Source: Oxalicibacterium solurbis (GTDB lineage: Bacteria; Pseudomonadota; Gammaproteobacteria; Burkholderiales; Burkholderiaceae_D). Taken from it: 64,000 nucleotides of DNA. The notes beneath the pieces are model-generated. The model was not told the origin of the DNA. It saw nothing but the letters and a program-made list of their open reading frames with translations, and searched no databases. The DNA lies in assembly GCF_014635845.1 (NCBI RefSeq), contig NZ_BMDP01000004.1, positions 62,001 through 126,000 of the forward strand, read 5' to 3'. Shown here one piece after another: positions 23,217-64,000 of the stretch (positions are counted from its first letter, which is position 1; each line of letters opens with the position of its first letter). The position numbers were made by a program, and so were the translations under genes.

Positions 23217-23225
23217 CGCCCTTCA

Positions 23226-41098: not shown

Positions 41099-41138
41099 CC
41101 ATACGCGTCAGTAAAAATTTCACCACTGGAGGTAGATG

Positions 41139-42887: not shown

Positions 42888-42888
42888 G

Positions 42889-43668
42889 ATGACGAAACTC
42901 GCTGCCAACCTGACGATGCTGTTCAACGAGGTTCCATTCATGGACCGCTTTGAACAAGCTGCAAAGAATGGTTTCAAGGGTGTGGAATTCCTGTTTCCGT
43001 ACGACTTCCCGGCGGCTGATGTCGCTGCGAAGCTGAAGGAAAACAACCTGGAAATGGTGCTGCACAACCTGCCGGCTGGTAACTGGGGCGGTGGCGAGCG
43101 CGGTATTGCCTGCCACCCGGATCGCGTGGCCGAGTTCAAGGAAGGCGTCGACAAGGCGCTGGAATACGCGAAGGTGCTCGGCACCCAGCGTATCAACTGC
43201 CTGGCCGGCATCGTGCCGGCTGGCGTGTCCTACGAACAGGCTGAAGCGACCTTCGTGTCGAACCTGAAGTACGCTGCCGAGAAGCTGAAAGCAACTGGCA
43301 TTCCGCTGCTGATCGAAGCGATCAACACGTTCGACATTCCGGGCTTCTTCCTGTCGGGCACCAAGCAGACGCTGGACATCATCGCCAAAGTCGGTTCCGA
43401 CAATCTGTTCTACCAGTACGACATCTATCACATGCAACGCATGGAAGGCGAACTGGCGAGCACGATGAAGAACAACCTGGCTGTCATCGCCCACCTGCAA
43501 CTGGCAGACAATCCGGGTCGTTTCGAGCCGGGCACCGGCGAGATCAACTACGGTTTCCTGTTCAAGTTCATCGACGAGATCGGCTACAAGGGCTGGATCG
43601 GTTGCGAATACAAACCGAAAGCCGGCACCGTTGAAGGTCTGGGCTGGCGCGCAGCACACGGCGTTTGA
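42889..43668 (+). CDS. hyi: Hydroxypyruvate isomerase Hyi
   Basis: The 259-residue TIM-barrel enzyme of the xylose isomerase-like family interconverts hydroxypyruvate and tartronate semialdehyde. Seen: NLTMLFNEVPFMDRFEQAAK, EAINTFDIPGFFL, YQYDIYHMQRMEGE and the C-terminal GCEYKPKAGTVEGLGW. It starts one base after the gcl stop, so it is tightly coupled. The length equals the family norm. Confidence 0.95.
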   Translation: MTKLAANLTMLFNEVPFMDRFEQAAKNGFKGVEFLFPYDFPAADVAAKLKENNLEMVLHNLPAGNWGGGERGIACHPDRVAEFKEGVDKALEYAKVLGTQRINCLAGIVPAGVSYEQAEATFVSNLKYAAEKLKATGIPLLIEAINTFDIPGFFLSGTKQTLDIIAKVGSDNLFYQYDIYHMQRMEGELASTMKNNLAVIAHLQLADNPGRFEPGTGEINYGFLFKFIDEIGYKGWIGCEYKPKAGTVEGLGWRAAHGV

Positions 43669-43680
43669 TGCATTGAAGCT

Positions 43681-43702
43681 GAGCGGTCCGATCGGGCCGC
43701 TC
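43681..43702 (+). repeat. Hairpin between hyi and garR
   Basis: GAGCGGTCCGA is complementary to TCGGGCCGCTC apart from one G-T pair, forming a self-complementary 22-base element. It may reduce read-through or stabilise the upstream mRNA; there is no strong T-run. Confidence 0.5.
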
Positions 43703-43776
43703 GGCCTTTAGGACGCAGCCTTCGTCCGCAGCAACACCTCACTACATAATCACACCAAATTTCAGGAGTCATCATC

Positions 43777-44664
43777 ATGGCAAAAGTCGGTTTTATCGGT
43801 CTGGGCATCATGGGTGCGCCGATGGCGCTCAACCTGCAAAAGGGCGGCCACAAGCTGTATCTGCACGACGTCAAGAACCCACCTGCTGAACTGATCGACG
43901 GCGGTGCAACGTCCTGCACGTCCGGCGCCGAAGTCGCCAAGCGCGCCGATATCATCATCACGATGGTGCCGGATACCCCGCACGTCGAAGCTGTGCTGTT
44001 CGGTGAAGAAGGCGTTGCCGCCGGCCTGACCGCCGGCAAGATCGTCGTCGACATGAGCTCGATCTCGCCGATCGCCACCAAAGGCTTCGCCAAGAAGATC
44101 AACGATCTGGGTTGCGAATACCTGGACGCGCCGGTTTCCGGTGGTGAAGTCGGCGCGAAAGCCGCTTCGCTGACGATCATGATCGGCGGTTCGCAAAAGG
44201 CATTCGACGAAGTCAAGCCACTGTTCGAACTGATGGGCAAGAACATCACGCTGGTCGGCGGTAACGGCGACGGCCAAACCACCAAGGTTGCGAACCAGAT
44301 CATCGTCGCACTGAACATTCAGGCTGTTTCCGAAGCGCTGCTGTTTGCATCGAAGGCTGGTGCAAATCCTGCCAAGGTGCGTGAAGCGCTGATGGGCGGC
44401 TTCGCGAACTCGCGCATTCTGGAAGTGCACGGCGAGCGCATGGTCAAGCGTACGTTCAACCCGGGCTTCCGTATCGAACTGCATCAGAAAGACCTGAACC
44501 TGGCACTGCAAGGCGCCAAGTCGATGGGCGTGTCGCTGCCGAACACCGCAGCAACGCAAGAGCTGATGAACGCATGCGCAGCCAACGGCATGAGCGGCCT
44601 GGATCACTCGGCACTGTGCCGCGCGATCGAGATCATGTCGAACCACGAAATCGCCAAGGCGTAA
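43777..44664 (+). CDS. garR: 2-hydroxy-3-oxopropionate (tartronate semialdehyde) reductase
   Basis: A 295-residue beta-hydroxyacid dehydrogenase that reduces tartronate semialdehyde to D-glycerate with NAD(P)H. The Rossmann start is KVGFIGLGIMGAPMALNLQK. The substrate motif is DAPVSGGEVGAKAASLTIM, and the catalytic lysine is in GQTTKVANQIIVALN. The family name GarR/GlxR follows from its place after gcl and hyi. Confidence 0.95.
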   Translation: MAKVGFIGLGIMGAPMALNLQKGGHKLYLHDVKNPPAELIDGGATSCTSGAEVAKRADIIITMVPDTPHVEAVLFGEEGVAAGLTAGKIVVDMSSISPIATKGFAKKINDLGCEYLDAPVSGGEVGAKAASLTIMIGGSQKAFDEVKPLFELMGKNITLVGGNGDGQTTKVANQIIVALNIQAVSEALLFASKAGANPAKVREALMGGFANSRILEVHGERMVKRTFNPGFRIELHQKDLNLALQGAKSMGVSLPNTAATQELMNACAANGMSGLDHSALCRAIEIMSNHEIAKA

Positions 44665-44687
44665 TCGTTCTTCGACATTTGTACCGG

Positions 44688-44728
44688 CCGGCATTGCGCT
44701 TTCCCGGCGCAATGCCGGTTTGATTTCC
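44688..44728 (+). terminator. Intrinsic terminator after garR
   Basis: The 12-base arms at 44688-44699 (CCGGCATTGCGC) and 44707-44718 are perfectly complementary around a 7-base loop, followed by TTTGATTT. It ends the gcl-hyi-garR unit before the glycerate kinase gene. Confidence 0.82.
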
Positions 44729-44765
44729 GTCATTCCAGTTAAATATTTCACCGTATTCTTGCCAC

Positions 44766-46031
44766 ATGTCGATCGATCCACGCCAGTTTTTGAATGACCT
44801 GTATGCCACCGCAGTCGAGGCCGTGAGCCCGCAGAAGTGCATGCCCGCTTATTTGCCCAAGCAGCCGGCCAAGGGCCGCACGCTGGTCATCGGTGCCGGT
44901 AAAGGCGCCGCCGCCATGGCAAAGGTCGTCGAAGACAACTGGCCTGGCAAGGTCGAAGGCCTGGTCGTCACGCGCTACGAACACGGCGCGGATTGCAGGC
45001 AGATCGAAGTGGTCGAAGCTGCGCACCCGGTGCCGGATGAGGCCGGTCGTGCCGCTGCCGGCCGTATGCTGGAAATGGTCAAGGGTTTGACCGAAGACGA
45101 TCTGGTGCTGTGCCTGATCACCGGCGGCGGCTCCGCATTGTTGAGCCTGCCGGGCGAAGGCATCACGCTGGAACAAAAACAGGCATTGAACAAGGCGTTG
45201 CTGAAGAGCGGTGCCACGATTTCCGAAATGAATTGCGTGCGCAAGCACCTGTCCGCGATCAAGGGTGGTCGCCTGGCACTGGCTTGCGCACCGGCACGCG
45301 TCGTCACGCTGCTGATCTCCGACGTGCCGGGCGACGATCCGGGCGTGATCGCATCCGGCCCGACGCTGCCGGATCCGACGACCTGCGAACAGTCGCTCGC
45401 GATCCTGAAGAAATACAACATCGAGATTCCTGAAAACGTGCGCAAGCATCTGGAATCCGGCGCGGGCGAAACGCCGAAGCCGGGCGATGCGCGTTTTGCA
45501 CGCAACGAACATCACGTGATGGCGACTGCGCAGCATGCGCTGGAAGCCGCTGCCGCGAAAGCGCGTGCCGCGGGCATTACGCCGTACATCCTGTCCAACG
45601 ATCTGGAAGGCGAATCGCGCGACGTCGGCATGGTGCACGCCGCATTGGCGAAACAAGTCGCAGCCTACGGACAGCCGTTCGCGAAACCATGCGTGATCCT
45701 GTCGGGCGGCGAAACCACCGTGACGGTGCGCGGCAAGGGCCGCGGTGGTCGCAATGCCGAATTCCTGTTGAGCCTGGCGGTGACGCTGAACGGCCAGCAA
45801 GGCATTCATGCGCTGGCCTGCGACACCGACGGCATTGATGGTTCGGAAGACAACGCCGGCGCGATCTATCAGCCGGATTCGATGCAACGCGCCGCCGACA
45901 AGGGCCTGAGCGCGAAAGCCATGCTGGAAAACAATGACGGCTACGGTTTTTTCAGCGCGCTGAATGATCTGATCGTCAGCGGCCCGACGCGTACCAACGT
46001 TAATGACTTCCGGGCCATCCTGATCCTGTAA
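44766..46031 (+). CDS. ttuD: Glycerate 2-kinase (MOFRL family, TtuD/GckA type)
   Basis: A 421-residue class II glycerate kinase that phosphorylates D-glycerate, giving 2-phosphoglycerate in characterised members. It has the N-terminal DUF4147 domain (LVIGAGKGAAAMAKVVEDNW, CLITGGGSALLSLPGEGITL) and the C-terminal MOFRL domain (ILSGGETTVTVRGKGRGGRN, ACDTDGIDGSEDNAGA). It stands between garR and pyk, which matches the flow from glycerate toward pyruvate. Confidence 0.94.
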   Translation: MSIDPRQFLNDLYATAVEAVSPQKCMPAYLPKQPAKGRTLVIGAGKGAAAMAKVVEDNWPGKVEGLVVTRYEHGADCRQIEVVEAAHPVPDEAGRAAAGRMLEMVKGLTEDDLVLCLITGGGSALLSLPGEGITLEQKQALNKALLKSGATISEMNCVRKHLSAIKGGRLALACAPARVVTLLISDVPGDDPGVIASGPTLPDPTTCEQSLAILKKYNIEIPENVRKHLESGAGETPKPGDARFARNEHHVMATAQHALEAAAAKARAAGITPYILSNDLEGESRDVGMVHAALAKQVAAYGQPFAKPCVILSGGETTVTVRGKGRGGRNAEFLLSLAVTLNGQQGIHALACDTDGIDGSEDNAGAIYQPDSMQRAADKGLSAKAMLENNDGYGFFSALNDLIVSGPTRTNVNDFRAILIL

Positions 46032-46038
46032 CGCATTC

Positions 46039-46090
46039 GTCGTCATGCTTGTATCAATCATTGCCAGCATGACGACACACTAGTTTTTTA
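46039..46090 (+). terminator. Intrinsic terminator after glycerate kinase
   Basis: GTCGTCATGCT (46039-46049) and AGCATGACGAC (46066-46076) form an 11-bp stem, followed after a few bases by a TTTTTTA run. The pyk start is 23 bases beyond, so part of the transcription may continue. Confidence 0.6.
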
Positions 46091-46112
46091 TTCTTACTTT
46101 TAGAAAGCTGTC

Positions 46113-47528
46113 ATGAGACGCAATCGCAAAGCAAAAATCGTCGCCACTCTGGGTCCTGCCAGCGGCGATCTGGAAACCATTACCGCGTTGTTCGAAGCGG
46201 GCGTGGACATGTTCCGCTTCAACTTCAGCCACGGTTCGCATGAAGATCACCGCGGACGTCACCAGATCGTGCGCAGCCTGGAAGAAAAGTATGGCCGTCC
46301 GGTCGCCATCCTGGCCGATCTGCAAGGCCCGAAAATTCGTCTCGGTACCTTCAATGGCGATTCCACGATGCTGGTTGCTGGCGAGCAGTTCGTGCTCGAT
46401 CGCGATGAAACCCCGGGCGATGCAACGCGCGTCTACCTGCCGCATCCGGAACTGTTCGCAGCTGTTGGCGCCGGTCAGACGCTGCTGCTGGACGACGGCA
46501 AGATCCGCCTGTCCGTCGAAAGCAACAAGGACAATCGCATCGTCACCAAGGTCGCCGTTGGTGGCAAGATTTCGAACCGCAAGGGCGTCAACGTTCCTGA
46601 TGCGATCCTGCCGATCCCGGCAATGACCGCCAAGGATCTGGTCGACCTGGAATTCGCGCTGTCGTTGGGCGTGGACTGGGTTGCACTGTCGTTCGTGCAA
46701 CAGGTTTCCGACATCGAAGACGCACGCAAGATCATCGGCGATCGTGCGCTGATCCAGTCGAAGATCGAGAAGCCGGCTGCGATGATCGATATCGACGGCA
46801 TCTGCAAGGCATCGGACTCCGTGATGGTTGCCCGTGGCGACCTCGGCGTTGAACTGCCGATCTCGCAAGTACCGCGTGCGCAGAAAGAGATCATCCGCGC
46901 TGCACGCAAGTATGGCCGTCCGACCATCGTCGCCACGCACATGCTGGAATCGATGACCGAATCGCCGATGCCGACGCGCGCGGAAGCCTCCGACGTCGCC
47001 AACGCGATCTACGAAGGCGCCGACGCCGTCATGCTGTCGGCCGAATCGGCCAGCGGCAAGAACCCGGTGCGTGCCGTCCAGATGATGGACAGCATCATCA
47101 AGGAAGTCGAAGCCGATCCGACCTACCGTACGCTGCTGGATGCGCAGCAAGTCGCGCCGCTGCCGACGCCGGAAGATGCGATTGTCACCGCACTGCGCGA
47201 TGTGACGACGGTCGTCAACGCAGCCGGCATCGTGACCTACACGAAATCGGGCCACACCAGCATGTTCGGTGCGCGCGTGCGTCCGAATGCGTCGATCCTG
47301 AGCATTACGCCGGACATCAAGATTGCACGTCGTCTGGCATGGGTCTGGGGCATTCACTCGATCGTCGGCAAGGACGTCACGTCGGTCGACGAGATGGTGC
47401 AGGTCGCTGTCAGCTCCGCAATGCGCGAAGGCTTTGCGAAAGTCGGCGAATACCTGACGATCACGGCCGGCCTGCCGTTCGGTGAATCGGGTACGACCAA
47501 CCTGTTGCATATCGCGACGGTGAAGTAA
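46113..47528 (+). CDS. pyk: Pyruvate kinase Pyk
   Basis: The 471-residue glycolytic enzyme forms pyruvate and ATP from phosphoenolpyruvate. Seen: MRRNRKAKIVATLGPASGDL, FRFNFSHGSHEDH, ADLQGPKIRLG, the signature around SKIEKPAAMIDIDGICKASD with VMVARGDLGVELP, and ESASGKNPVRAV. It is a type II, PykA-like enzyme by length. Its position after glycerate kinase completes a glyoxylate-to-pyruvate block, although enolase is not in this window. Confidence 0.95.
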   Translation: MRRNRKAKIVATLGPASGDLETITALFEAGVDMFRFNFSHGSHEDHRGRHQIVRSLEEKYGRPVAILADLQGPKIRLGTFNGDSTMLVAGEQFVLDRDETPGDATRVYLPHPELFAAVGAGQTLLLDDGKIRLSVESNKDNRIVTKVAVGGKISNRKGVNVPDAILPIPAMTAKDLVDLEFALSLGVDWVALSFVQQVSDIEDARKIIGDRALIQSKIEKPAAMIDIDGICKASDSVMVARGDLGVELPISQVPRAQKEIIRAARKYGRPTIVATHMLESMTESPMPTRAEASDVANAIYEGADAVMLSAESASGKNPVRAVQMMDSIIKEVEADPTYRTLLDAQQVAPLPTPEDAIVTALRDVTTVVNAAGIVTYTKSGHTSMFGARVRPNASILSITPDIKIARRLAWVWGIHSIVGKDVTSVDEMVQVAVSSAMREGFAKVGEYLTITAGLPFGESGTTNLLHIATVK

Positions 47529-47532
47529 TCCG

Positions 47533-50008
<2,476 letters not shown>

Positions 50009-52822: not shown

Positions 52823-53788
52823 TCATTGCCCGGCGATTTGCTTCAGTTCGTTAGCCTGCTTGCCGGGTTTCGGGTTGTAGCGGACGAGGCGTTCGATCAA
52901 TATCGGGCCTTCTTCCAGCAGGAAATCATGAAACGCTTGCGCCACCGGTGGCAGGCGCTTGTTCCGGCGATGCACGACATACCAGTTCAGCATCACCGGG
53001 AATCCCACCACGTCCAGCACGGCCAGGCTGCCGGCCTGCAATTCCAGGCTGATCGTGTGTGCGGACAGGAAGCTGATGCCCATGCCGGCGATGACGGCCT
53101 GCTTGATGGTTTCCGTGCTGCGGATCTCCATCACGACGTTTTTCGGCATGTTGCCGGCCAATCCTTCTTCCATCGAGATCCACGTGTCCGAACCTTTTTC
53201 GCGGACGACGAAAGGCTCGTTCAGCAGCGCACTCAGCGGTATGTTTTTCTGCGATACCAGATGATGATCAGGGGCGGCAACGATCACGTACGGGTGCGGG
53301 GCGAATGCCTCGTTTTGCGTATCGATATCCAGCGGCGGACGTACCATGATCGCCAGATCGGTCAGATTGTTTGCCAATTGGTTCAGTAAACCTTCGCGAT
53401 TGTGTACCGACAGATTCAGCGTCACGCCCGGATGGCTGCGCGCGAATTCGACCAGCAGGCGTGGGAAAAAGTAGTCGCCCGCGCTGATCACGGCAACGTT
53501 CAACTTGCCGCCGGTGATTCCCTTGAATTGCGTCATCGCATCTTCGGCTTCCTGGAATTGCTGGATGATCGTGCGGCTGTAATGCAGCAATTCTGCGCCG
53601 CCGGGCGTCAGGTAGATTTTCTTGCCGAGTTGCTCGAACAAGGGCAGGCCGGCGTGTTCTTCCAGCTTTTTGACTTGCGTCGAGACGGCAGGCTGCGTCA
53701 GGTGCAGTTCTTCGGCGGCGCGCGAAAAGCTCAAATGGCGGGCAACGGTTTCAAAAACCTTTAATTGCCGCAGCGTTGCATTTTTCAT
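52823..53788 (-). CDS. LysR-family regulator (CbbR-like)
   Basis: A 321-residue regulator. The N-terminal region MKNATLRQLKVFETVARHLS and SRAAEELHLTQPAVSTQVKK resembles CbbR/RbcR-type activators, and the substrate-binding domain includes KLNVAVISAGDYFFPRLLVE. No carbon-fixation genes are in the window. An inverted repeat ATGATTA/TAATCAT (53823-53829, 53847-53853) just upstream may be its own operator. Target genes are unknown. Confidence 0.88.
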   Translation of the reverse strand: MKNATLRQLKVFETVARHLSFSRAAEELHLTQPAVSTQVKKLEEHAGLPLFEQLGKKIYLTPGGAELLHYSRTIIQQFQEAEDAMTQFKGITGGKLNVAVISAGDYFFPRLLVEFARSHPGVTLNLSVHNREGLLNQLANNLTDLAIMVRPPLDIDTQNEAFAPHPYVIVAAPDHHLVSQKNIPLSALLNEPFVVREKGSDTWISMEEGLAGNMPKNVVMEIRSTETIKQAVIAGMGISFLSAHTISLELQAGSLAVLDVVGFPVMLNWYVVHRRNKRLPPVAQAFHDFLLEEGPILIERLVRYNPKPGKQANELKQIAGQ

Positions 53789-54436: not shown

Positions 54437-55603
54437 ATGAATATCCACGAGTATCAAGGGAAAGAAATCCTGCGCAAGTACGGTGTCACGACACCGAAAG
54501 GCTTTCCATGTTTCTCCGTAGACGAGGCTGTGCAGGCTGCTGAAAAACTGGGCGGCAAGGTATGGGTTGTCAAGGCGCAGATCCATGCAGGCGGTCGCGG
54601 TAAAGGAGGCGGTGTCAAGGTTGCGAAATCGCTGGACGAAGTTCGCAAATACGCAAACGACATTCTGGGCATGACGCTGGTGACGCACCAGACCGGTCCG
54701 GAAGGCCGTCTGGTCAAGCGTTTGCTGATCGAAGAAGGCGCGGATATCAAGAAAGAACTGTACGTGGGTATGGTCGTCGATCGTGGCAGCCAGCGCGTTG
54801 CGCTGATGGCGTCGAGCGAAGGCGGCATGGACATCGAGCACGTCGCAGAACACACGCCTGAAAAAATTCACAAGGTATTCATCGATCCGGTCAAAGGTCT
54901 GCTCGACAGCGAAGCCGACGACATCGCTCGCAAGATCGGTGTGCCTGAAGGTTCTATCGGCCAGGCTCGTGCATTCATGCAAGGCCTGTACAAGGCGTTC
55001 GACGAGTCCGACGCATCGCTGGCTGAAATCAACCCGCTGATCGTGACCGGCGACGACCGTATCGTTGCGCTGGACGCGAAATTCAACTTCGACTCCAACG
55101 CGATGTATCGTCATCCTGAAATCCAGGAAATGCGCGATCTGGACGAAGAAGACGCAGCTGAAATCGAAGCATCGAAATTCGACCTGACCTACATCTCGCT
55201 CGACGGCAACATCGGCTGCCTCGTCAACGGCGCTGGTCTGGCGATGGCAACCATGGACGTCATCAAGCTGTACGGCGGCGAACCAGCCAACTTCCTCGAC
55301 GTCGGCGGCGGTGCGACGACCGAGAAAGTGACCGAAGCATTCAAGATCATGTTGAAAAACCCGGACATCAAGGCGATTCTGGTCAACATCTTCGGCGGCA
55401 TCATGCGTTGCGACGTGATCGCAAACGGCGTGATCGCAGCGGCAAAGCAGGTTGATCTGCAGGTTCCTCTGGTCGTTCGCATGGCGGGCACCAACGAAGA
55501 GCTCGGCAAGAAAATTCTGGCTGAATCCGGCCTCCCGATCATCACGGCTAACAACATGGCTGAAGCGGCTGAGAAAGTCGTCAAAGCAGCACAGGGGAAA
55601 TAA
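54437..55603 (+). CDS. sucC: Succinyl-CoA synthetase beta subunit SucC
   Basis: The 388-residue TCA-cycle subunit has an N-terminal ATP-grasp domain ([33 protein letters not shown]) and a C-terminal CoA-ligase domain ([30 protein letters not shown]). With SucD it interconverts succinyl-CoA and succinate with ATP or GTP formation. It lies three bases before sucD. Confidence 0.97.
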
Positions 55604-55606
55604 TCA

Positions 55607-56482
55607 ATGTCTATCCTGATCAACAAAGACACCAAGGTCATCACCCAAGGTATCACCGGCAAGACCGGTCAGTTTCACACCAAGATGTGCATCGAGTATG
55701 CGAACGGTAAGAACTGCTTCGTCGCCGGTGTGAACCCGAAAAAAGCGGGTGAATCGTTCGAAGGCGTGCCAATCTATGGCACGGTTGCTGAAGCGAAGGC
55801 CGAAACCGGCGCCACCGTTTCCGTCATCTACGTTCCGCCGCCATTCGCTGCCGCTGCAATCGACGAGGCTGTCGACGCAGGCGTCGATCTGGTGATCTGC
55901 ATTACCGAAGGCATTCCTGTGCGCGACATGATCCGTACCAAGCAGCGCATGGAAGGCAAGAAAACCCTGCTGCTCGGACCGAACTGCCCAGGCCTGATCA
56001 CTCCAGACGAAATCAAGATCGGCATCATGCCGGGTCATATCCACAAGAAAGGTCGCATCGGCGTCGTTTCGCGTTCGGGTACGTTGACCTATGAAGCCGC
56101 TGGTCAGCTGGCTGAATTCGGCCTCGGTCAATCGACCGTCGTCGGTATCGGCGGCGATCCGGTTTCGGGTCTGAAGCACGTCGACGTGCTGCGCATGTTC
56201 AATGATGATCCTGATACCGATGCCGTCATCATGGTCGGTGAAATCGGCGGTGATGCAGAGGAAACCTGTGCACGCTGGATCAAGGACAACATGAAGAAAC
56301 CGGTTGTCGGCTTCATCGCTGGCGTTACCGCGCCTCCGGGCAAGCGCATGGGCCACGCCGGTGCGATCATTTCCGGCGGTAAAGGTACGGCGCAAGAGAA
56401 GCTGGCAGTCATGGAAGCTTGCGGCATCAAAGTGACGAAGAATCCGTCCGAAATGGGCCGCCTGCTGAAGTCGGTTCTGTAA
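55607..56482 (+). CDS. sucD: Succinyl-CoA synthetase alpha subunit SucD
   Basis: The 291-residue CoA-binding subunit. The Rossmann start is [20 protein letters not shown]. The phosphorylated histidine lies in [18 protein letters not shown] near residue 246. GPNCPGLI is the family signature. It is followed by a strong hairpin terminator. Confidence 0.97.
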
Positions 56483-56510: not shown

Positions 56511-56548
56511 GCATCCGCGGAAGAAATGTTTCCGCGGATGCGGTTTTC
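56511..56548 (+). terminator. Intrinsic terminator after sucD
   Basis: The 12-base arms GCATCCGCGGAA (56511-56522) and TTCCGCGGATGC (56530-56541) form a perfect stem with a 7-base loop, followed by GGTTTTC. Confidence 0.8.
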
Positions 56549-56650
56549 ATTCATTGCCGATCGGCTGCATGCCTGAGTGCAACGGCTGCTTCCGATGGAC
56601 GCGACACCCTGCCGCGTTTATAATTTCGGCTCATTTATAGAAAGTCAAAA

Positions 56651-57418
56651 ATGTCACAACGTTGGGTCCGTTTCAGCCACGCCGGCAACACGCAATTTGG
56701 TACGCTCGAAGGCGACAATATCCAGGTGCACACCGGCGACATGTTCAACAATCCGGTCAAGACCGACACGGTGCTGAACATCAATGACGTCAAGGTGCTG
56801 ATGCCGGCCCAGCCGACCAAGATCATCGCGATGTGGAACAACTTCCACGCCCTCGCGAAAAAACTGAACCTGGCAGATCCGGCCGAGCCGCTGTATCTGA
56901 TCAAGGCACCGAATTCCTATCTGAATCCTGGCGAGACGATCGAGAAGCCGCCGACCGATGAAAAAATCGTGTTCGAAGGCGAGCTCGGCATCGTGATCGG
57001 CAAGACCGCAAAACGCGTGTCCGAGGCGGACGCGTTGAACCATGTGTTCGGCTACACGGTGGCAAACGATGTGACCGTCGCCGACATCCTGTTCCGCGAT
57101 TCCTCGTTCCCGCAGTGGGTGCGCGCAAAGGGCCTGGACACGTTCTGCCCGTTCGGCCCGGTCATTGCAACCGATCTCGATCCGACGATCCTGGTCGTTA
57201 AAACCATCCTCAACGGCGACGTTCGACAAGACTACCCGATCAGCGACATGCGCTTCTCGGTGCAACAACTGGTCAGTCTGATTTCCGCCGACATGACGCT
57301 GTACCCGGGCGACATCATCCTCTGCGGCACCTCTGTCGGTGTCGGCTCGATGAAGCCGAACAGCACGATTGAGGTCGAGATTGCCGGCATCGGCAAGCTC
57401 ACAAACAGTTTCAAATAA
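56651..57418 (+). CDS. Fumarylacetoacetate hydrolase-family protein
   Basis: A 255-residue FAH-fold enzyme. The metal-binding acid cluster is seen in IVFEGELGIVIGKTAKRVSE (the E-x-E motif) and ANDVTVADILFRD, and the family block GDIILCGTSVGVG lies near the C-terminus. Relatives include acylpyruvases, oxaloacetate decarboxylases and HpcE-type hydratase/isomerases. It begins a unit with the PanE-like gene 16 bases downstream. This context points to keto-acid or dicarboxylate metabolism, but the substrate is not determined. Confidence 0.85.
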   Translation: MSQRWVRFSHAGNTQFGTLEGDNIQVHTGDMFNNPVKTDTVLNINDVKVLMPAQPTKIIAMWNNFHALAKKLNLADPAEPLYLIKAPNSYLNPGETIEKPPTDEKIVFEGELGIVIGKTAKRVSEADALNHVFGYTVANDVTVADILFRDSSFPQWVRAKGLDTFCPFGPVIATDLDPTILVVKTILNGDVRQDYPISDMRFSVQQLVSLISADMTLYPGDIILCGTSVGVGSMKPNSTIEVEIAGIGKLTNSFK

Positions 57419-57434
57419 AACTGAGGTAATGAGT

Positions 57435-58445
57435 ATGAAAATTGCAGTTATCGGAGCCGGTGCAATCGGCGGATATGTTGCCGTGAAACTGGCATTGGCA
57501 GGCGACGATGTCACCTGTATCGTGCGTGGCGCCAATCTGGAAGCCATCAGCAAGAACGGTCTGAAACTGATCATGGATGACGGCACCGAACACGTCGCAT
57601 CCAACGTCAAGGCGACGAACGATTACGACAAGGCAGGCCAGCAGGACATGATCATCCTGGCGATGAAAGCACACCAGCTGGAAGCGATCGCCGACGACCT
57701 GCACAAGCTGATCGGCCCGGAAACCGTCATCGTCACGATGCAAAACGGTATCCCGTTCTGGTACTTCCACAAGCACGGCGGCAAGCTGGCCGGTACGCGC
57801 GTTTCCAGCGTCGATCCGACTGGCAAGATTACCGAGAAGATTCCTGCTGACCGTGTCATCGGTTGCGTCGTGTATCCGGCTTCGGAATTGATCGCTCCGG
57901 GCGTTATCAAGCACATCGAAGGCGACCGCTTCCCGGTGGGCGAGCTGGATGGCTCGATCAGCGAGCGTGTCACCCGCGTTTCCGAATGCTTCACGAAGGG
58001 CGGCTTCAAGGCGCCTGTGCTGGACAACATCCGTGCTGAAATGTGGTTGAAGCTGTGGGGTAACCTGACGTTCAACCCGATCAGCGCATTGTCGCATTCG
58101 ACATTGCAGGACATCTGCCAATTCCCGCTGACGCACGAACTGGCCGCTGCAATGATGACCGAGGCGAAAACGATCGCCAACAAGCTGGGCATCGAATTCC
58201 GCGTGCCGCTCGAGAAGCGTATCGCCGGCGCAGAAAAGGTCGGCAAGCACAAGACTTCGATGCTGCAGGACGTCGAAGCTGGTCGCGATCCGGAAATCGA
58301 CGCGCTGGTGGGTTCCGTTGTCGAACTCGGTCGTCTGACCGAAACGCCGACGCCGCATATCAACACCGTCTACTCGCTGGTCAAATTGCTGGCGAAGACG
58401 ATGGGCGAGGAAACCGGCCACGTCAAGATGCAGAAATGTGCCTGA
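57435..58445 (+). CDS. Ketopantoate reductase (PanE/ApbA) family protein; candidate oxalyl-CoA reductase
   Basis: A 336-residue NADPH-dependent reductase. The Rossmann motif is KIAVIGAGAIGGYVAVKLAL. The family active-site lysine region is AEMWLKLWGNLTFNP (K206, N210). It is longer than E. coli PanE (about 303). ATG 57435 lies eight bases after GAGG; ATG 57429 is also possible. It is far from panD and has no panB or panC nearby. It sits beside an FAH protein, the tct transporter and oxc. PanE2 of Methylobacterium extorquens reduces oxalyl-CoA to glyoxylate, so the same role is proposed here; that is inference. Confidence 0.85.
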   Translation: MKIAVIGAGAIGGYVAVKLALAGDDVTCIVRGANLEAISKNGLKLIMDDGTEHVASNVKATNDYDKAGQQDMIILAMKAHQLEAIADDLHKLIGPETVIVTMQNGIPFWYFHKHGGKLAGTRVSSVDPTGKITEKIPADRVIGCVVYPASELIAPGVIKHIEGDRFPVGELDGSISERVTRVSECFTKGGFKAPVLDNIRAEMWLKLWGNLTFNPISALSHSTLQDICQFPLTHELAAAMMTEAKTIANKLGIEFRVPLEKRIAGAEKVGKHKTSMLQDVEAGRDPEIDALVGSVVELGRLTETPTPHINTVYSLVKLLAKTMGEETGHVKMQKCA

Positions 58446-58463
58446 TAGGGTAAATCGCAGGTA

Positions 58464-58502
58464 AGAAACGCCCATGTCGATCTGATCGCATGGGCGTTTT
58501 TA
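58464..58502 (+). terminator. Intrinsic terminator after the PanE-like gene
   Basis: AAACGCCCATG (from 58466) and CATGGGCGTTT (from 58489) form an 11-bp stem with a 12-base loop, followed by TT and AATAT. Confidence 0.85.
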
Positions 58503-59163
58503 ATATGCGCGCTGACATGTCTGTCATCTGAGGGATTTTTGATTGCGTGAAGCCCGCGTAGCTTCATTGCTAATGGGGTGTAATTGACGCGCGAGAGTTC
58601 TATTTGTCTTGGCGGAGGGTTTTCTGACTGATTCTTAACCTGAATCAAGGAAACAGGGGCGCGCATCTCGCAAAATCCGCGGCTAATACGTATTAACACG
58701 TACTGGACGCAGAGCGCACAGTGTGTGAATATCGCCCACGGACAAGCATTATTTTTCCCACAGCTGTCCGCTAAGGTGGCACACTCTCGCAATTATTTGC
58801 GGTGGCCCCAAAAATACTAGGGAAAACTGAATTCGAGGTACTGTTGTTCAGATGTGCGTTCGATACGTCGAACAGACAGCTACCAGCAGGTTTGCAGATT
58901 GCGGAAAAAGGAGCCGCATGACGCAAGCCCATAATTTGAGAATGTTACATGGACATCGGGAATGCTCTCGAAGTCCAAAAACTTGATCCAGATCAAGAGA
59001 ATTTTCGAAAAAAAGACACACCATCATTTTCGAAAAATATAAAAAGTAACTGCAGGTTATGTTTCGGTGCATCGAAGTCGCACGATGCCAGTGCTCACGA
59101 GGCGCTCAATAAAAGCGGCAGAAGTAAAAAAGTATCAAAATTATTATTCACAGGAGACAGTAA
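58503..59163. other. Long regulatory region upstream of tctC
   Basis: About 660 bases with no convincing gene but several perfect palindromes: TAATACGTATTA (58684-58695), GTTCGA-TACG-TCGAAC (58858-58873), CTTGATC-CA-GATCAAG (58982-58997) and two direct copies of ATTTTCGAAAAA 25 bases apart (59001-59012, 59026-59037). A TATAAA at about 59038-59043 could serve as -10. The tctC gene has a CAGGAGACAG ribosome-binding site. Confidence 0.6.
58983..58996. promoter_or_regulatory. Consensus FNR-type box TTGATCCAGATCAA
   Basis: The sequence is an exact TTGAT-N4-ATCAA dyad, the consensus for Fnr/Anr-type regulators with an E..SR recognition helix. It is about 175 bases before tctC. If TATAAA at 59038 is the -10, the centre lies near -60, a usual class I activator position. 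The Fnr-like regulator encoded at 62620 is a natural candidate to bind it. Confidence 0.65.
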
Positions 59164-60186
59164 ATGATCAAGGAATTCATTTCTAAAGGCGGTATTGCAA
59201 AAGCAACTCTGGGTGCCTTTGCTGCTGCAGCTCTGACAGCAACCCCGGCATTTGCCGCATGGAAGCCAACCAAACCGGTTGAATTCGTCGTTCCAGCCGG
59301 TACCGGTGGTGGCGCTGACCAGATGGCACGTCTGATCCAGGGTGCGGTCATCAAAAACAAACTGATGGATCAGCCGCTGATCGTCGTCAACCGTTCCGGT
59401 GGCGCTGGCGCTGAAGGTTTCCTTGACGTGAAGAACTCGAAAGGCGATGCACACAAGATTGTCATCACCCTGTCGAACTTGTTCACCACGCCGATGGCAA
59501 CGGGTGTTCCGTTCAACTGGAAAGACATGACCCCGGTCGCCATGCTGGCACTGGATCAGTTCGTCCTGTGGACCAACGCTGAGAAGCCATACAAGTCCGC
59601 AAAAGATTACATCGATGCTGTGAAGGCTGCTGGCCCGAACAAATTCAAGATGGGCGGTACGGGTTCCAAGCAGGAAGATCAGATCATCACGGCTGGTCTG
59701 GAGAAAGCAACCGGCACTAAGTTCATCTACATTCCGTTCAAAGGCGGCGGCACGGTTGCTGTTCAGCTGGTCGGTAACCACATCGATTCTTCGGTGAACA
59801 ACCCGATCGAAGCAGTCTCGCAATGGCGTGCGGGCAAATTGAATGCGCTGTGCGTGTTCGATACCGAACGTATGCCATACAAGGCAAAGATCACCGAAAC
59901 CCAATCGTGGAACGACGTTCCTACCTGTAAAGAAGCCGGCATTCCGACCGACTACACGATGCTGCGTGGCATTTTCATGCCGCCAGGTGTAACGGCCGAC
60001 CAACTGGCTTTCTATGTCGATCTGTTCAAAAAAGTGCGTGAAACGCCGGAATGGAAAGATTACATGGAGAAAGGCGCGTTCAACACGTCTTTCAAAACTG
60101 GCGACGACTTCAAGGCCTGGCTCGAAAATGCAGAGAAGCAGCACGCAACTCTGATGGAAGAAGCCGGCTTCATGGCCAAGAAGTAA
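59164..60186 (+). CDS. tctC: Tripartite tricarboxylate transporter substrate-binding protein TctC
   Basis: A 340-residue periplasmic binding protein of the Bug/TctC family. The signal peptide ends near A31 (GAFAAAALTATPAFA). The mature start WKPTKPVEFVVPAGTGGGAD is the family mark, and the anion-binding loops follow. It captures a carboxylate and hands it to TctAB. Location next to oxc and the PanE-like gene suggests oxalate or another small dicarboxylate, which the sequence alone cannot decide. Confidence 0.93.
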   Translation: MIKEFISKGGIAKATLGAFAAAALTATPAFAAWKPTKPVEFVVPAGTGGGADQMARLIQGAVIKNKLMDQPLIVVNRSGGAGAEGFLDVKNSKGDAHKIVITLSNLFTTPMATGVPFNWKDMTPVAMLALDQFVLWTNAEKPYKSAKDYIDAVKAAGPNKFKMGGTGSKQEDQIITAGLEKATGTKFIYIPFKGGGTVAVQLVGNHIDSSVNNPIEAVSQWRAGKLNALCVFDTERMPYKAKITETQSWNDVPTCKEAGIPTDYTMLRGIFMPPGVTADQLAFYVDLFKKVRETPEWKDYMEKGAFNTSFKTGDDFKAWLENAEKQHATLMEEAGFMAKK

Positions 60187-60279
60187 TCATAGGGCGCAAT
60201 AGCTGATACTGCCCGCCGTACGCGGCGGCAGTATCAGTCCTCTGCCCGCACTCAAGTAAAAATTTCAGGAGCATTCCTC

Positions 60280-60801
60280 ATGGATCAGAATTTGGAATCC
60301 GGCGATGGCGTTCGTACGGGCGTGGCTACTTACGTAGTCGATGCTGTGGTCGCCGCAATTCTATTGGCACTTGGCATCCTCATTATCGTGACTAGTTGGC
60401 GTCTCGGTGCTGGTTGGACGTCTACCGGCCCAGGCTCGGGTTATTTCCCTTTCGGCATGGGCGTTCTTATCGCACTCTCCGGTGGTGTTACCTTGGGCCA
60501 AGCCCTGTTCGGTAAAAACAAGAATATGGAAATATTCGCCGACAAGGAACAGATTACGCGCGTACTGCAGGTTTTTATTCCTTCGATCATCTATGTTGGC
60601 GGTATCGAGATTTTCGGCGTGTATGTCGCGTCCGCAGTTTTCGTCGCCTTGTTCATGATTTTCCTGGGCAAATATTCGGCCATCAAGGCAATCATTATTG
60701 CGTTCGCGGTTAATGCCGTGTTCTTCCTGATGTTCGAAGTATGGTTCAAGGTCCCACTGTTTAAAGGGTTATTGGATCCTCTGGCATTCCTCGGCTATTA
60801 A
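60280..60801 (+). CDS. tctB: Tripartite tricarboxylate transporter small membrane subunit TctB
   Basis: A 173-residue protein with four predicted membrane helices (VVDAVVAAILLALGILIIVT first). Family features are GPGSGYFPFGMGVLIALSG after helix 1 and a C-terminal FLMFEVWFKVPL segment. It supports TctA in sodium-coupled uptake. It starts 93 bases after tctC with AGGAG before the ATG. Confidence 0.92.
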   Translation: MDQNLESGDGVRTGVATYVVDAVVAAILLALGILIIVTSWRLGAGWTSTGPGSGYFPFGMGVLIALSGGVTLGQALFGKNKNMEIFADKEQITRVLQVFIPSIIYVGGIEIFGVYVASAVFVALFMIFLGKYSAIKAIIIAFAVNAVFFLMFEVWFKVPLFKGLLDPLAFLGY

Positions 60802-60858
60802 GCCTGGGCGGTCGAGGTGGCTGTTTAGTCAGAAGGAATTCAAGGAGTTTTAGTCAAA

Positions 60859-62388
60859 ATGGATGAACTTAATTCACTATTTCACGGGTTCGCAGTACTA
60901 ATGACCCCGGCCAACTTTTTGCTGATGATTGTCGGCATTACGTTGGGTGTTCTGGTCGGTGTTCTGCCGGGTCTGGGTGGCGCAAACGGTGTTGCCATTC
61001 TGTTGCCGTTGACGTTCTCGATGTCACCGACTTCGGCAATCATCATGTTGTCGTGCCTTTACTGGGGTGCGTTGTTCGGTGGTGCAATCACTTCCGTGCT
61101 TTTCAATATTCCGGGCGAGCCGTGGTCGGTTGCGACGACATTCGACGGGTATCCGATGGCGCAGAAGGGTGAGGCTGGAGCCGCACTGACTACCGCATTT
61201 ACGTCGTCTTTCGTTGGTGCATTCCTGGCGGTCATCATGATCACCTTCCTGGCGCCGCTGGTTGCGAGCTTTGCACTCGAATTCGGTGCGCCTGAATTCT
61301 TCTCGGTTTACCTGTTGACGTTCTGCAGCTTTGTCGGCATGGGTAAAGGTTCGCCGATGAAGATTCTGGGTTCGATGGCACTGGGCTTTGCCCTGGCATG
61401 CGTCGGTCTGGATACGGTGACGGGTCAATTGCGTCTGACCTTCGGCTTCGAAGAGTTCATGCGCGGTTTCGACTTCCTGATCGCAGTTATCGGCTTGTTC
61501 GGTATCGGCGAAATCCTGTTGTCGATGGAAGAAGGCCTGGCATTCTCCGGTAAAAACGCGAAGATCAACCCAGCGGTTGTGTTCCAGACCTGGAAACGCC
61601 TGCCGCAGTTCTGGGTCACGTCGCTGCGTAGTGCGGCTGTCGGTATCTGGATGGGTATTACCCCGGGTGGTGCAACGCCGGCTTCGTTCATGTCCTATGG
61701 CCTGGCCAAGAAGATGGGCAAGAACGGTGCAAACTTCGGCAAGGGTGAAATCGAAGGCGTGGTCGCACCGGAAACCGCTGCGCACGCTGCGGGTACTTCG
61801 GCACTGCTGCCAATGCTGGCACTCGGTATCCCAGGTTCGCCGACGGCAGCTGTTCTGTTGGGTGGTCTGCTGATCTGGGGCCTGCAACCTGGTCCGTTGC
61901 TGTTCGTCGAGCAGCACGACTTCGTGTGGGGCCTGATCGCCAGTATGTACCTGGGTAACCTGGTTGGCCTGCTGGTTGTGTTGACCACCGTTCCGCTGTT
62001 TGCATCGATCCTGCGTATTCCGTTCTCGATCATCGCTCCGGTCATTATCGTGATTTGCGGTATCGGCGCGTACACGGTCGGCAATGCAATGTTCGATACC
62101 TGGCTGATGCTGATCTTTGGTATCGTTGGCTATCTGTTCAAGAAGCTCGACTATCCGCTCGCACCGCTGGTTCTGGCGCTGGTTCTGGGTCGTAATGCAG
62201 AAGACTCGTTCCGTCAGGCAATGCTGTCGTCGCAAGGCGACGTGATGATCATGTTCTCGAATGGTCTGGTCGGCAGCATTACCACGCTGGCATTGATCAT
62301 GCTGTTCTGGCCGCTGATCTCGAAGATCATCGCAAAGATCCGTCCACCGAAAGAGGACGAATTTGCGGCGCATCGCGAAGCAGAATAA
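60859..62388 (+). CDS. tctA: Tripartite tricarboxylate transporter large membrane subunit TctA
   Basis: A 509-residue channel subunit with about 11 or 12 membrane helices. Signature sequences: LGVLVGVLPGLGGANGVAIL in the first half and the repeat ALGIPGSPTAAVLLGGLLIW in the second, both typical of TctA. LYWGALFGGAITSVLFNIPG is the family's Pro-Gly loop. It ends the tctC-tctB-tctA operon before a strong terminator. Confidence 0.95.
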   Translation: MDELNSLFHGFAVLMTPANFLLMIVGITLGVLVGVLPGLGGANGVAILLPLTFSMSPTSAIIMLSCLYWGALFGGAITSVLFNIPGEPWSVATTFDGYPMAQKGEAGAALTTAFTSSFVGAFLAVIMITFLAPLVASFALEFGAPEFFSVYLLTFCSFVGMGKGSPMKILGSMALGFALACVGLDTVTGQLRLTFGFEEFMRGFDFLIAVIGLFGIGEILLSMEEGLAFSGKNAKINPAVVFQTWKRLPQFWVTSLRSAAVGIWMGITPGGATPASFMSYGLAKKMGKNGANFGKGEIEGVVAPETAAHAAGTSALLPMLALGIPGSPTAAVLLGGLLIWGLQPGPLLFVEQHDFVWGLIASMYLGNLVGLLVVLTTVPLFASILRIPFSIIAPVIIVICGIGAYTVGNAMFDTWLMLIFGIVGYLFKKLDYPLAPLVLALVLGRNAEDSFRQAMLSSQGDVMIMFSNGLVGSITTLALIMLFWPLISKIIAKIRPPKEDEFAAHREAE

Positions 62389-62405
62389 ACGGCTGCAGTC
62401 GTTAT

Positions 62406-62442
62406 AAAAAATCCCGCAAGGTTTGCCTTGCGGGATTTTTTT
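62406..62442 (+). terminator. Intrinsic terminator after tctA
   Basis: A 16-bp stem (arms at 62406-62421 and 62426-62441) with loop TTTG and core TCCCGCAAGG/CCTTGCGGGA, ending in a T-run. The flanking A-run would let it act on the convergent regulator gene too. Confidence 0.92.
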
Positions 62443-62619
62443 ATTTCACGAAAGACAATGCTGTCGTACTGAAAGATGGCACAGGGGTTGCGACATCTAT
62501 AACGATGCACTAATGCTTGTATGGAGGTTCGCGAGAATGCTGGCTTTTTGCCATTAAAGCCAAAAGAATCCGATAGCGAAATATTCACGTCGCGAATGAA
62601 ATATTCGCATTTGCCAAGG

Positions 62620-63228
62620 CTAGATTTTTCCCTGATGCTTCAGTCTGCTGAGCGTTTCGGGTGACAGATTGAGGTAGGAGGCCAGCTCCTTCTTGGGGAT
62701 CCGGTCGAACAACTCCGGATGTTTGCGCAAGAAGCGCTGTACGCGTCCTGGGGCGTCCAGCAGGTGCAGGGTAATGGTATGCGCCATGATGTCGCTCATG
62801 ACTTGCATGACGTCATATTCGAAAGCATGTTTGACATGCTCATGCTTGTCCATGAATGCAATCCATTGCTGGAGTGGCAATTTTGCGACACGTGCCTTCG
62901 TGACGCAGATGATGCTGTAGGGCGTAGGAGTTTTAAGACGCCAGGCGGCGTAACTGGTTTCCATGTTGCGCTCATCGGCGAAGCGCAAAATCATTTCCTT
63001 GGCTTGCTGATTGGTAACAACCCGTTTGAGAATGCCGTCAAGGATGAAATATTGCTCCATTTCATGTACACCTTGATGCAACAGGAAGTCGCCCTTGGGG
63101 CAATCAACGATGACGAGATGCGGTTCCAGTTCCGCCCATTCGCTATCCGTTATGTCCTTTAAGCCCAGATTCTGCCTTAGTTGAACGCGGATCACGTTTT
63201 TTTCGGGATGGCTGTCGACAGTCGGCAT
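62620..63228 (-). CDS. Crp/Fnr-family transcriptional regulator
   Basis: A 202-residue protein with an N-terminal cyclic-nucleotide-binding-like barrel (about residues 25-115) and a C-terminal helix-turn-helix (IPKKELASYLNLSPETLSRL). E191, S194 and R195 give the E..SR pattern that reads TTGAT half-sites in Fnr. The only cysteines are C43 and C108, so the Fe-S sensing cysteines of Fnr are absent and the signal must be different. ATG 63228 is used; an in-frame TTG lies nine bases upstream. It is divergent from oxc and convergent with tctA, so it probably regulates this cluster. Confidence 0.9.
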   Translation of the reverse strand: MPTVDSHPEKNVIRVQLRQNLGLKDITDSEWAELEPHLVIVDCPKGDFLLHQGVHEMEQYFILDGILKRVVTNQQAKEMILRFADERNMETSYAAWRLKTPTPYSIICVTKARVAKLPLQQWIAFMDKHEHVKHAFEYDVMQVMSDIMAHTITLHLLDAPGRVQRFLRKHPELFDRIPKKELASYLNLSPETLSRLKHQGKI

Positions 63229-63283
63229 TGGCGGCAAGAAGCAGAATTAGGGGCTGCACGGGGAGTGAATCATGCGATGAAAA

Positions 63284-63297
63284 TTGACCGGGGTCAA
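63284..63297. promoter_or_regulatory. Dyad TTGACCGGGGTCAA between the Fnr-like gene and oxc
   Basis: A TTGAC-N4-GTCAA dyad, one base per half off the Fnr consensus, lies in the divergent region about 56 bases from the regulator start. Extended, ATTGACCGGGGTCAAT has 6-base arms. Likely operator for the neighbouring regulator. It shares 16 of 17 bases with the site before thiC. Confidence 0.55.
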
Positions 63298-63363
63298 TGA
63301 TAGATGCGCAGGCAGATCGATATGATACCCCCACTTGGTTAACGATGCGTATAGAGCACGTTT

Positions 63364-63469
63364 AAAGGGTATCTCTAAAAGTCCGCTTTGGATTTTTAGA
63401 GATGCCTTTCAAGTAACGAAACAACCGTGAAAGCACGGTTTTTCAACGGCAGGTGTTGAGCTTGGCTCA
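63364..63469 (+). promoter_or_regulatory. Structured leader of oxc
   Basis: Three hairpins stand in series before oxc. The first has nearly 20-bp imperfect arms at 63364-63384 and 63390-63409 (core ATCTCTAAAA with TTTTAGAGAT). The second has AACCGTG (63423-63429) and CACGGTT (63434-63440) around AAAG, followed by TTT, like a small intrinsic terminator. The third is TGAGC/GCTCA (63457-63469). The set could be an attenuator or unknown cis-acting RNA, or one element could be the end of a short leader transcript. Confidence 0.45.
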
Positions 63470-63502
63470 GCCTAATTCGCAATCAACGAAGAGAACATCA
63501 TT

Positions 63503-64000
63503 ATGAAAAACGACATTCAAGCAACAGCAGCCGACGTCGAGCTGACTGATGGCTTCCATCTGCTGATGGATGCGCTGGAAATGAACGGCATCAAGAACAT
63601 TTACGGTCTGCTCGGTATTCCGGTGACCGAAGTTGGTCGCATGTGGCAAGCCCGCGGCAACAACTTCTACAGCTTCCGCAACGAACAGAACGCTGGCTAC
63701 GCCGCGTCGGTTGCCGGTTACCTGACCAAGAAGCCTGGTATCTGCGTTACTGTTTCGGCGCCTGGCTTCCTGAACGGCCTGACCGCACTGGCAAATGCCA
63801 CGACGAACTGCTTCCCGATGATCCTGATCTCGGGTTCGTCCGAGCGTGAAATCGTCGACCTGCAGCAAGGCGACTACGAAGAAATGGATCAGTTGAACAT
63901 CGCTCGTCCGCACTGCAAGGCTTCCTTCCGTATCAACCGTGTTGAAGATATCGGCGTTGCAGTCGTTCGTGCAATCCGTACCGCATTGTCCGGTCGTCCG
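63503..64000 (+). CDS. oxc: Oxalyl-CoA decarboxylase Oxc (5' part, cut by window end)
   Basis: The first 166 codons of a ThDP-dependent enzyme that decarboxylates oxalyl-CoA to formyl-CoA and CO2. The frame is open to the last base, so the gene continues outside. Recognisable family sequence: [74 protein letters not shown] and [20 protein letters not shown], almost as in Oxalobacter formigenes OXC. The conserved ThDP-activating Glu is in FRNEQ. The start ATG 63503 lies after an AACGAAGAGAAC stretch with a weak ribosome-binding site. A formyl-CoA transferase gene is expected nearby, outside the window. Confidence 0.96.

Follow-up and report, generated by a model that had tools for sequence, protein, structure and literature searches.

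Why should a gene for a PanE-family reductase, whose annotated relatives are labeled as the pantothenate enzyme 2-dehydropantoate 2-reductase, lie among genes for oxalate breakdown? The question is posed by a 64,000-nucleotide stretch of the Oxalicibacterium solurbis genome (contig NZ_BMDP01000004.1, positions 62,001 to 126,000, forward strand; hereafter the window), in which such a protein is encoded from position 57435. An initial annotation of the window had proposed that this protein reduces oxalyl-coenzyme A (oxalyl-CoA). We find support for this proposal in the protein sequence, the subfamily tree, gene linkage and a printed precedent from Cupriavidus necator, and consider it very likely that the region is an oxalate-utilization cluster in which the 57435 product reduces part of the oxalyl-CoA to glyoxylate. 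The genes of the cluster are the following (bit scores are given for profile matches):

52823..53788, minus strand: LysR-type regulator, divergent from sucCD
54437..55603, plus strand: sucC of an oxalate-cluster lineage (NF001913, 595.7 bits, cut-off 370)
55607..56482, plus strand: sucD of the same lineage (NF004230, 479.3 bits, cut-off 336), phosphohistidine motif GHAGA intact
56511..56541, plus strand: terminator-like hairpin 3' of sucD, 13-pair stem
56596..56624, plus strand: promoter-like site 5' of the FAH-PanE pair, 10 of 12 consensus matches
56651..57418, plus strand: FAH-superfamily enzyme, partner of PanE (FAH_hydrolase PF01557, 190 bits)
57435..58445, plus strand: PanE-family protein (ApbA PF02558, 106.5 bits, and ApbA_C PF08546, 104.6 bits, both over cut-off)
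59164..60186, plus strand: TctC binding protein (PF03401, 105.5 bits, over cut-off)
60280..60801, plus strand: TctB (PF07331, 65 bits, over cut-off)
60859..62388, plus strand: TctA permease (PF01970, 486.6 bits, over cut-off)
62620..63237, minus strand: Crp/Fnr-type regulator (PF00027, 33.5 bits)
63503..64000, plus strand: oxc, oxalyl-CoA decarboxylase, 5' part (first 166 codons in the window), continuing to G000:C4:127212
L010:1464-2717, beyond the window: frc, CoA transferase, copy 1 (TIGR03253, over cut-off)
L010:3211-4461, beyond the window: frc, copy 2 (TIGR03253, over cut-off)

The profile matches place the FAH, PanE-family, TctCBA, Crp-type and oxc genes where the initial annotation had put them, and agree with its statement that no pantothenate gene stands beside panE. 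It had not included the sucCD pair directly upstream (54437-56482) or the two frc copies just outside the window. The ATG of panE at 57435 lies 16 nucleotides past the FAH stop codon, and a TGAGGT stretch before it resembles a ribosome-binding site. The complete Oxc has 569 amino acids and scores 891 bits against the equivalog TIGR03254 (cut-off 739.4) at G000:C4:125542-127185, G000 being the host genome; it lies 5 kb downstream of panE, with frc past it. The two Frc proteins, 71% identical to each other, score 744.9 and 727.4 bits against a cut-off of 504.2. Downstream, L010 continues from the rest of oxc and the two frc genes to a LivK-like gene, a formate dehydrogenase and an fdhD-like gene. 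The alpha subunit of the formate dehydrogenase scores over cut-off, its NuoF-like partner and the fdhD-like gene score below theirs, and the LivK-like label is our reading of a gene with no family match at E 1e-30. The same gene order, from LysR to frc, is seen in Herminiimonas contaminans (L173) as far as that locus extends, with identities to the window of 97% for SucC, 89% for FAH, 87% for PanE and 88% for Oxc; this suggests an origin of the window in or near that group. Among 170 loci searched, relatives of the LysR protein were found in 28 (53-89% identity) and of the Crp/Fnr-type protein in 22 (59-91%). The identity and order of these genes, the subfamily membership of the reductase, the types of cluster and the lineage of SucCD are direct observations.

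The PanE-like subfamily and its oxalate neighborhoods

The 57435 product matches the PanE subfamily model NF005089 with 479 bits (cut-off 223), and matches at E 1e-30 or better occur in 94 of 300 genomes drawn from the host's order. Eight NADPH-binding and catalytic positions of E. coli PanE (R31, K72, N98, K176, N180, N184, S244 and E256) are identical in the window protein (R31, K78, N104, K206, N210, N214, S275 and E287) and nearly invariant in homologues both above and below 45% identity. The subfamily of closer homologues differs from the 25 lower-identity ones at H272, Y147, P148, Y110 and F213, among others, and E. coli PanE carries N at the place of H272.

A phylogeny had been suggested as a check in the initial annotation, and a grouping of the 57435 product with other PanE proteins was not seen. 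In the FastTree analysis one side, with support 95, holds 148 rows, made up of every row that reaches 45% identity (145 with the window) and the long-branch lower-identity rows L257, L258 and L260. The other side holds E. coli PanE and the remaining 22 lower-identity homologues. The 148 rows include a 13-row clade (support 99) of Cupriavidus proteins, a Phyllobacterium plasmid protein and second copies from Oxalobacter and a neighbor, and a 135-row clade (98). Within the latter the window falls in a clade of 39 rows (97), and another of 52 rows (97) comprises genes, those of Methylobacterium among them, that lie mostly beside oxalyl-CoA synthetase. An IQ-TREE analysis of 60 chosen rows, which omit the long-branch rows and E. 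coli PanE, split them 43 versus 17 with a support of 88/85 that is not starred. It recovered the window's group at 99/99 and the type named after ApbA2 of C. necator at 77/53, and did not join the ligase-type rows, those beside oxalyl-CoA synthetase, in one clade. A single exclusive clade of window-type and ligase-type PanE was rejected by the approximately unbiased test (p-AU 0.009). In the trees C. necator H16 ApbA2 is represented by relatives in loci L127 (Cupriavidus metallidurans) and L121, ApbA2 and M. extorquens AM1 PanE2 themselves not being included; the latter is not among the best 80 of at least 589 relatives, where M. goesingense, M. oxalidis and Methylobacterium sp. Leaf123 are listed.

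To relate subfamily and gene context, neighborhoods were collected for 169 homologous rows, with flanks of up to about 10 kb and often less. Frc, oxc, a divergent thiamine diphosphate (ThDP) enzyme, oxalyl-CoA synthetase and oxlT served as core oxalate markers, with thresholds chosen after the first neighborhood survey. Of the 144 rows with at least 45% identity, 86 have one or more core genes in their flanks, versus 1 of 25 below (85/142 versus 1/25 without duplicate sequences; 69/104 versus 1/25 in loci of at least 13 kb). That one lower-identity row, L101_6705, has the subfamily PanE L101_7660 in the same locus. As many rows came from a scan begun with a Methylobacterium query (its best 80 of at least 589 relatives), the fairer figure is that of the sample from the host's order alone, 21/46 versus 1/25 (Fisher p 1.6e-4, uncorrected for kinship). 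The two nearest relatives without a canonical oxc (G036 and G007) were considered as counter-cases and set aside, as they carry the divergent ThDP enzyme beside Frc. The reductase is also widely spread: ligase-PanE pairs were seen in two cyanobacteria, one of them a Nostoc, OxlT-PanE in a metagenome-assembled genome (MAG) of Gemmatimonadetes and PanE-Frc in a Vicinamibacterales MAG (L196, L209, L137, L193).

Two cluster designs and the SucCD lineage

The loci with a subfamily PanE, 142 in number, include types that were not seen together. An AMP-forming ligase, defined by at least 45% identity to the L116 protein, is present in 48, and shares no locus with frc (30 with frc only), oxc (18 with oxc only) or sucC (12 with sucC only). 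The NCBI library lacks an oxalyl-CoA synthetase model, and the best match of the L116 ligase there is a FadD-type ligase below cut-off; its best solved relatives are four PDB chains named oxalate-CoA ligase or oxalyl-CoA synthetase. Of sixteen genomes with the Frc/SucCD design, 7 gave a ligase match at E 1e-60 or better, with identities of 32-35% throughout, and G000 gave none.

In several loci the usual place of Oxc next to Frc is taken by a divergent ThDP enzyme that shares 24-26% identity with Oxc or Gcl of the window:

L073:8583-10304, minus strand: divergent ThDP enzyme
L075:12085-13866, plus strand: divergent ThDP enzyme
L127, about 16633: divergent ThDP enzyme
L129:18829-20643, minus strand: divergent ThDP enzyme
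L159, L170, L188, L195 and L264 (about 5714): divergent ThDP enzyme

It never shares a locus with Oxc (18 loci with Oxc only, 8 with the divergent enzyme only). The L073 and L075 proteins match no NCBI model at cut-off, and the best solved relatives of the latter are 2-hydroxyacyl-CoA lyases; the enzyme may be a formyl-CoA lyase or represent another type of oxalyl-CoA decarboxylase.

The SucCD of the window belongs to a lineage of its own. Loci were gathered for 30 of 62 family matches, and a tree of 45 SucC plus SucD rows, which omits L295 (SucD cut by the contig end) and the long-branch Phyllobacterium L129, sets 16 rows including the window apart from 29 others with support 99. FAH, OxlT, PanE, Frc, ThDPx or TctA is encoded in the flanks of 14 of the 16; of the remaining two, L221 is placed at the end of a contig, and L299, with LysR alone in its short flank, belongs to the oxalate cluster L121. 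Such a gene accompanies 1 of the 29 others (L293, beside oxc), with none in the flanks, of at most 1.5 kb, of the rest. More than one sucC is present in 6 of 15 genomes searched (G158, G301, G317, G321 and the Variovorax genomes G352 and G353), and only the oxalate kind in G000, G318, G349, G354, G320, G342, G334 and G304. Two loci depart from the usual arrangement. L263 (G320:C25, a contig of 6,452 bases) carries oxalate-type sucCD together with FAH and TctAB; its genome shows no ApbA_C match, which we read as the use of another reductase or as one lost or unassembled. L272 (G301:C49) has OxlT-sucCD-PanE-Crp without FAH, while the same genome has OxlT-sucCD-FAH-PanE in L273.

A reason for a dedicated SucCD is offered by the book-keeping of CoA. 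When reduction takes a fraction x of the oxalyl-CoA, no more than 1-x of the donors used by Frc can be regenerated from formyl-CoA, and x must be met by another CoA donor. The most likely role of SucCD is to refill this donor. For gut bacteria, PMC12188714 mentions succinyl-CoA in the role of donor and sucCD as what provides it. With E. coli YfdE and UctC, PMC3720670 reports no product from succinyl-CoA and oxalate. Among the literature matches listed, no title or abstract opening mentions sucCD inside oxalate clusters, which does not prove its absence. A switch of substrate in SucCD was considered and rejected, as no lineage-specific substitution of known meaning was seen.

As a plausible, though tentative, generalization, oxalate assimilators might come in two designs. 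One would pair oxalyl-CoA synthetase with a PanE-type reductase; the other would run the Frc/Oxc cycle with its own recruited SucCD lineage, which repays the CoA thioester lost in each reduction, either via succinyl-CoA and the transferase or by acting directly on oxalate. In the window's genus, and probably in Oxalobacter, the oxalate SucCD would have displaced the copy of the tricarboxylic acid (TCA) cycle, so that one enzyme links both, and in both designs the clustered FAH would perform an additional step, or a repair, that has yet to be described. The enzyme and pathway themselves are of a known kind; new are the cluster design with its own SucCD, exclusive of the ligase design in the loci examined, and the candidate gene in Oxalobacter.

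Alternative functions of the cluster genes

Several observations weigh against oxalyl-CoA reduction in an oxalate cluster, or against the support claimed for it. Beyond the unstarred IQ-TREE split, 35 of the 104 loci of at least 13 kb have a subfamily PanE and no core oxalate gene, and the linkage is therefore common rather than universal. When counted genome-wide (subfamily taken as 49% identity or more; the G049 fragment not counted), oxc is present in 26 of 52 subfamily genomes, 23 of 42 with only lower-identity PanE and 2 of 206 with neither, so that its presence tracks PanE homologues generally and does not single out the subfamily. The co-occurrence of oxc with the subfamily (26/52 versus 25/248, p 5e-10) was accordingly dropped as proof, since 23 of those 25 are genomes with lower-identity PanE. 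Kinship-corrected pair tests of the exclusive patterns ran in the same direction and were never significant, because the independent pairs are too few; one locus, L208, combines a weak ligase (32%) with oxc and sucCD. Outside the cluster, the genome encodes four more proteins of the OxlT family that score over cut-off, and a search with the E. coli enolase found no match at E 1e-3 in the window and the next 34 kb. The 57435 product is moreover the sole ApbA_C protein, and the only PanE-family member, of a genome that has panB on another contig. The other full-length ApbA-like match, C2:258396, proved to be a prephenate dehydrogenase and not a second, genuine PanE.

This last point, with the conservation of all eight PanE positions examined, would suit an ordinary ketopantoate reductase that lies among oxalate genes by chance, or an enzyme that performs both reactions. 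The wider family, however, commonly manages without PanE: in 60 genomes panB is present in 59 and ApbA_C in 42 (52 and 36 of 53 good ones), and 17 of the 53 good genomes hold panB without any ApbA_C protein, while G314, the single good genome without panB, has ApbA_C. IlvC is a known stand-in for PanE, and ilvC is present in the O. solurbis genome. Furthermore, the substrate-side positions such as H272, Y147 and P148 are unlike those of E. coli PanE and the lower-identity homologues, and FAH-PanE pairs recur next to oxalate genes. We therefore regard a PanE function of this kind as unlikely; the 57435 protein is probably not there for pantothenate, although it may serve pantothenate synthesis as a second role.

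Still less likely, in our estimate, is that TctCBA brings in some other keto acid on which PanE and FAH work, independently of the neighboring oxalate genes. FAH enzymes act on keto acids, and no oxalate reaction known to us requires such an enzyme; the FAH-PanE pair also stands in several loci that lack core oxalate genes, and a paired test of FAH against any core gene, a further point against the oxalate assignment, gave no clear direction (2.6 same, 1.8 opposite). On the other side, FAH and PanE accompany two unrelated oxalate-activating systems, FAH being present in 27 of the 48 loci with the ligase and in 17 of the 18 with Oxc. As it lies within 300 nucleotides of PanE in 63 of 73 FAH genes examined and is common to both designs, FAH may have oxalate, oxalyl-CoA or glyoxylate as its substrate, or may serve to repair a by-product. 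An acylpyruvase-type hydrolase was considered and rejected, as the Glu of the HxxE pair known from FAHD1 was not seen and A, G, V or S stands there in 71 of 74 rows; a FAHD1 structure with oxalate bound exists (PMC8398924). Compatible with the oxalyl-CoA reductase assignment is another explanation, possible though rather doubtful, in which SucCD has only its housekeeping role in the TCA cycle and came into the cluster by chance. The sucC at 54437 is the only one in the genome (a single match at E 1e-5), so its product must also serve the TCA cycle; its motif and family scores are normal, and the 17 lineage-specific SucCD positions include none of known meaning. Terminator-like and promoter-like sites also separate sucCD from FAH-PanE, though their frequency in the region is not above that in shuffled sequence. 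The separation of 16 from 29 SucCD rows, the oxalate-type genes in their flanks (14/16 versus 1/29) and the six genomes with more than one sucC argue instead for a link to oxalate.

Proposed route of oxalate carbon and its relatives

The reactions ascribed here to this organism, the substrate of TctCBA and the role of SucCD are our deductions from gene content. Oxalate would be imported, probably by TctCBA, and converted to oxalyl-CoA by the Frc-type CoA transferases. One part of the oxalyl-CoA would pass through Oxc to formyl-CoA and be oxidized through formate dehydrogenase for energy; the other would be reduced by the 57435 protein with NADPH, perhaps supplied by PntAB, to glyoxylate, as carbon for cell material. 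Each reduction would free CoA without yielding formyl-CoA and leave the transferase cycle short of a CoA donor, which the upstream-encoded SucCD would most likely refill as succinyl-CoA at the cost of ATP. The import of oxalate by TctCBA is suggested by the distribution of TctA and OxlT, which never share a locus (of 142 loci, 31 have TctA only, 29 OxlT only and 82 neither).

Glyoxylate would enter central metabolism via Gcl, GarR, glycerate kinase, an enolase whose gene lies elsewhere, and pyruvate kinase. The genes of this route in the window, and related ones, are:

36955..38556, plus strand: pntA, NAD(P) transhydrogenase alpha (TIGR00561, 734.7 bits, cut-off 444.4)
38568..39974, plus strand: pntB, NAD(P) transhydrogenase beta (NF006974, 728.2 bits, cut-off 689)
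41136..42887, plus strand: gcl, glyoxylate carboligase (TIGR01504, 1132.7 bits, cut-off 711.2)
42889..43668, plus strand: hyi, hydroxypyruvate isomerase (TIGR03234, 382.1 bits, cut-off 353.5)
43777..44664, plus strand: garR, tartronate semialdehyde reductase (TIGR01505, 426.3 bits, cut-off 340.8)
44766..46031, plus strand: glycerate kinase, previously called ttuD (NF041176 glycerate 2-kinase, 244 bits, under the cut-off of 550)
46113..47528, plus strand: pyk, pyruvate kinase (TIGR01064, 500.2 bits, cut-off 306.4)
47699-47801: thiamine pyrophosphate (TPP) riboswitch preceding thiC, between the gcl and sucCD blocks (60.6 bits)

The complete oxalate-to-pyruvate route in one neighborhood that had been envisaged for this region thus stands for gcl, hyi, garR, glycerate kinase and pyk (41136-47528), and is incomplete there for want of enolase. 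Both pntA and pntB also lie close to PanE in L124, L128, L129 and L172.

The nearest parallels are found in systems with known oxalate use. In M. extorquens AM1, an oxalyl-CoA synthetase was reportedly paired with the oxalyl-CoA reductase PanE2 by Schneider in 2012. The window protein resembles PanE2 in family and oxalate context, and is 60% identical to proteins of M. bullatum (L126) and M. goesingense (L132) that are presumably PanE2; these loci, however, carry oxalyl-CoA synthetase and OxlT, whereas the window carries Frc/Oxc, SucCD and TctCBA. PanE2 was characterized as a putative oxalyl-CoA reductase in PMC8411744, and used in yeast as an oxalyl-CoA reductase in PMC12686821. In C. necator the apbA2 gene, located close to frc-oxc, encodes a protein with 51% identity to M. 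extorquens PanE2, and a strain that lacks it doubles on oxalate in 10 h instead of 6.5 h (PMC7486775). The window gene shares with ApbA2 of strain H16 the PanE family and the position near frc-oxc, and the Cupriavidus metallidurans cluster (L127) and the G158 cluster (L121) likewise carry FAH and a SucCD paralogue; the proteins of these stand-ins are nevertheless 53-54% identical to that of the window and form the separate 13-row subclade. In Pseudomonas fluorescens SucCD is coupled to oxalyl-CoA through succinyl-CoA, as PMC2752808 describes, but in the other direction, toward ATP and oxalate, whereas the reverse is proposed for the window, where the genes are clustered.

Oxalobacter formigenes shares Oxc and Frc with the window, and an O. 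formigenes MAG (L184 = G304) and G342, of the same genus, have a PanE ortholog of 74-75% identity and the same SucCD lineage. The PanE there, in contrast, is not beside the core oxalate genes, and the window adds formate dehydrogenase and TctCBA. Two PanE homologues are in fact present in Oxalobacter (G342, G304) and in a neighboring genus (G334), neither copy beside core oxalate genes:

L265, L271, L268: first PanE copy, 74-78% identical to the window protein
L266, L279, L269: second PanE copy, 48-50% identical to the window protein

Both are candidates for the reduction of oxalyl-CoA in Oxalobacter, a gut organism relevant to kidney stones. Reassignment of the subfamily would give a gene marker that separates oxalate assimilation from mere degradation, and the CoA book-keeping, besides giving a reason for SucCD in these clusters, amounts to a testable claim on how oxalotrophs meet the cost of their carbon supply. 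The region also raises two more functions, the possible import of oxalate by TctCBA and that of FAH as partner of PanE.

Two riboswitches were noted in the window. The TPP riboswitch before thiC stands in a region encoding Gcl and Oxc, both of which are ThDP enzymes, and a fluoride riboswitch lies at 23217-23286 (52.6 bits).

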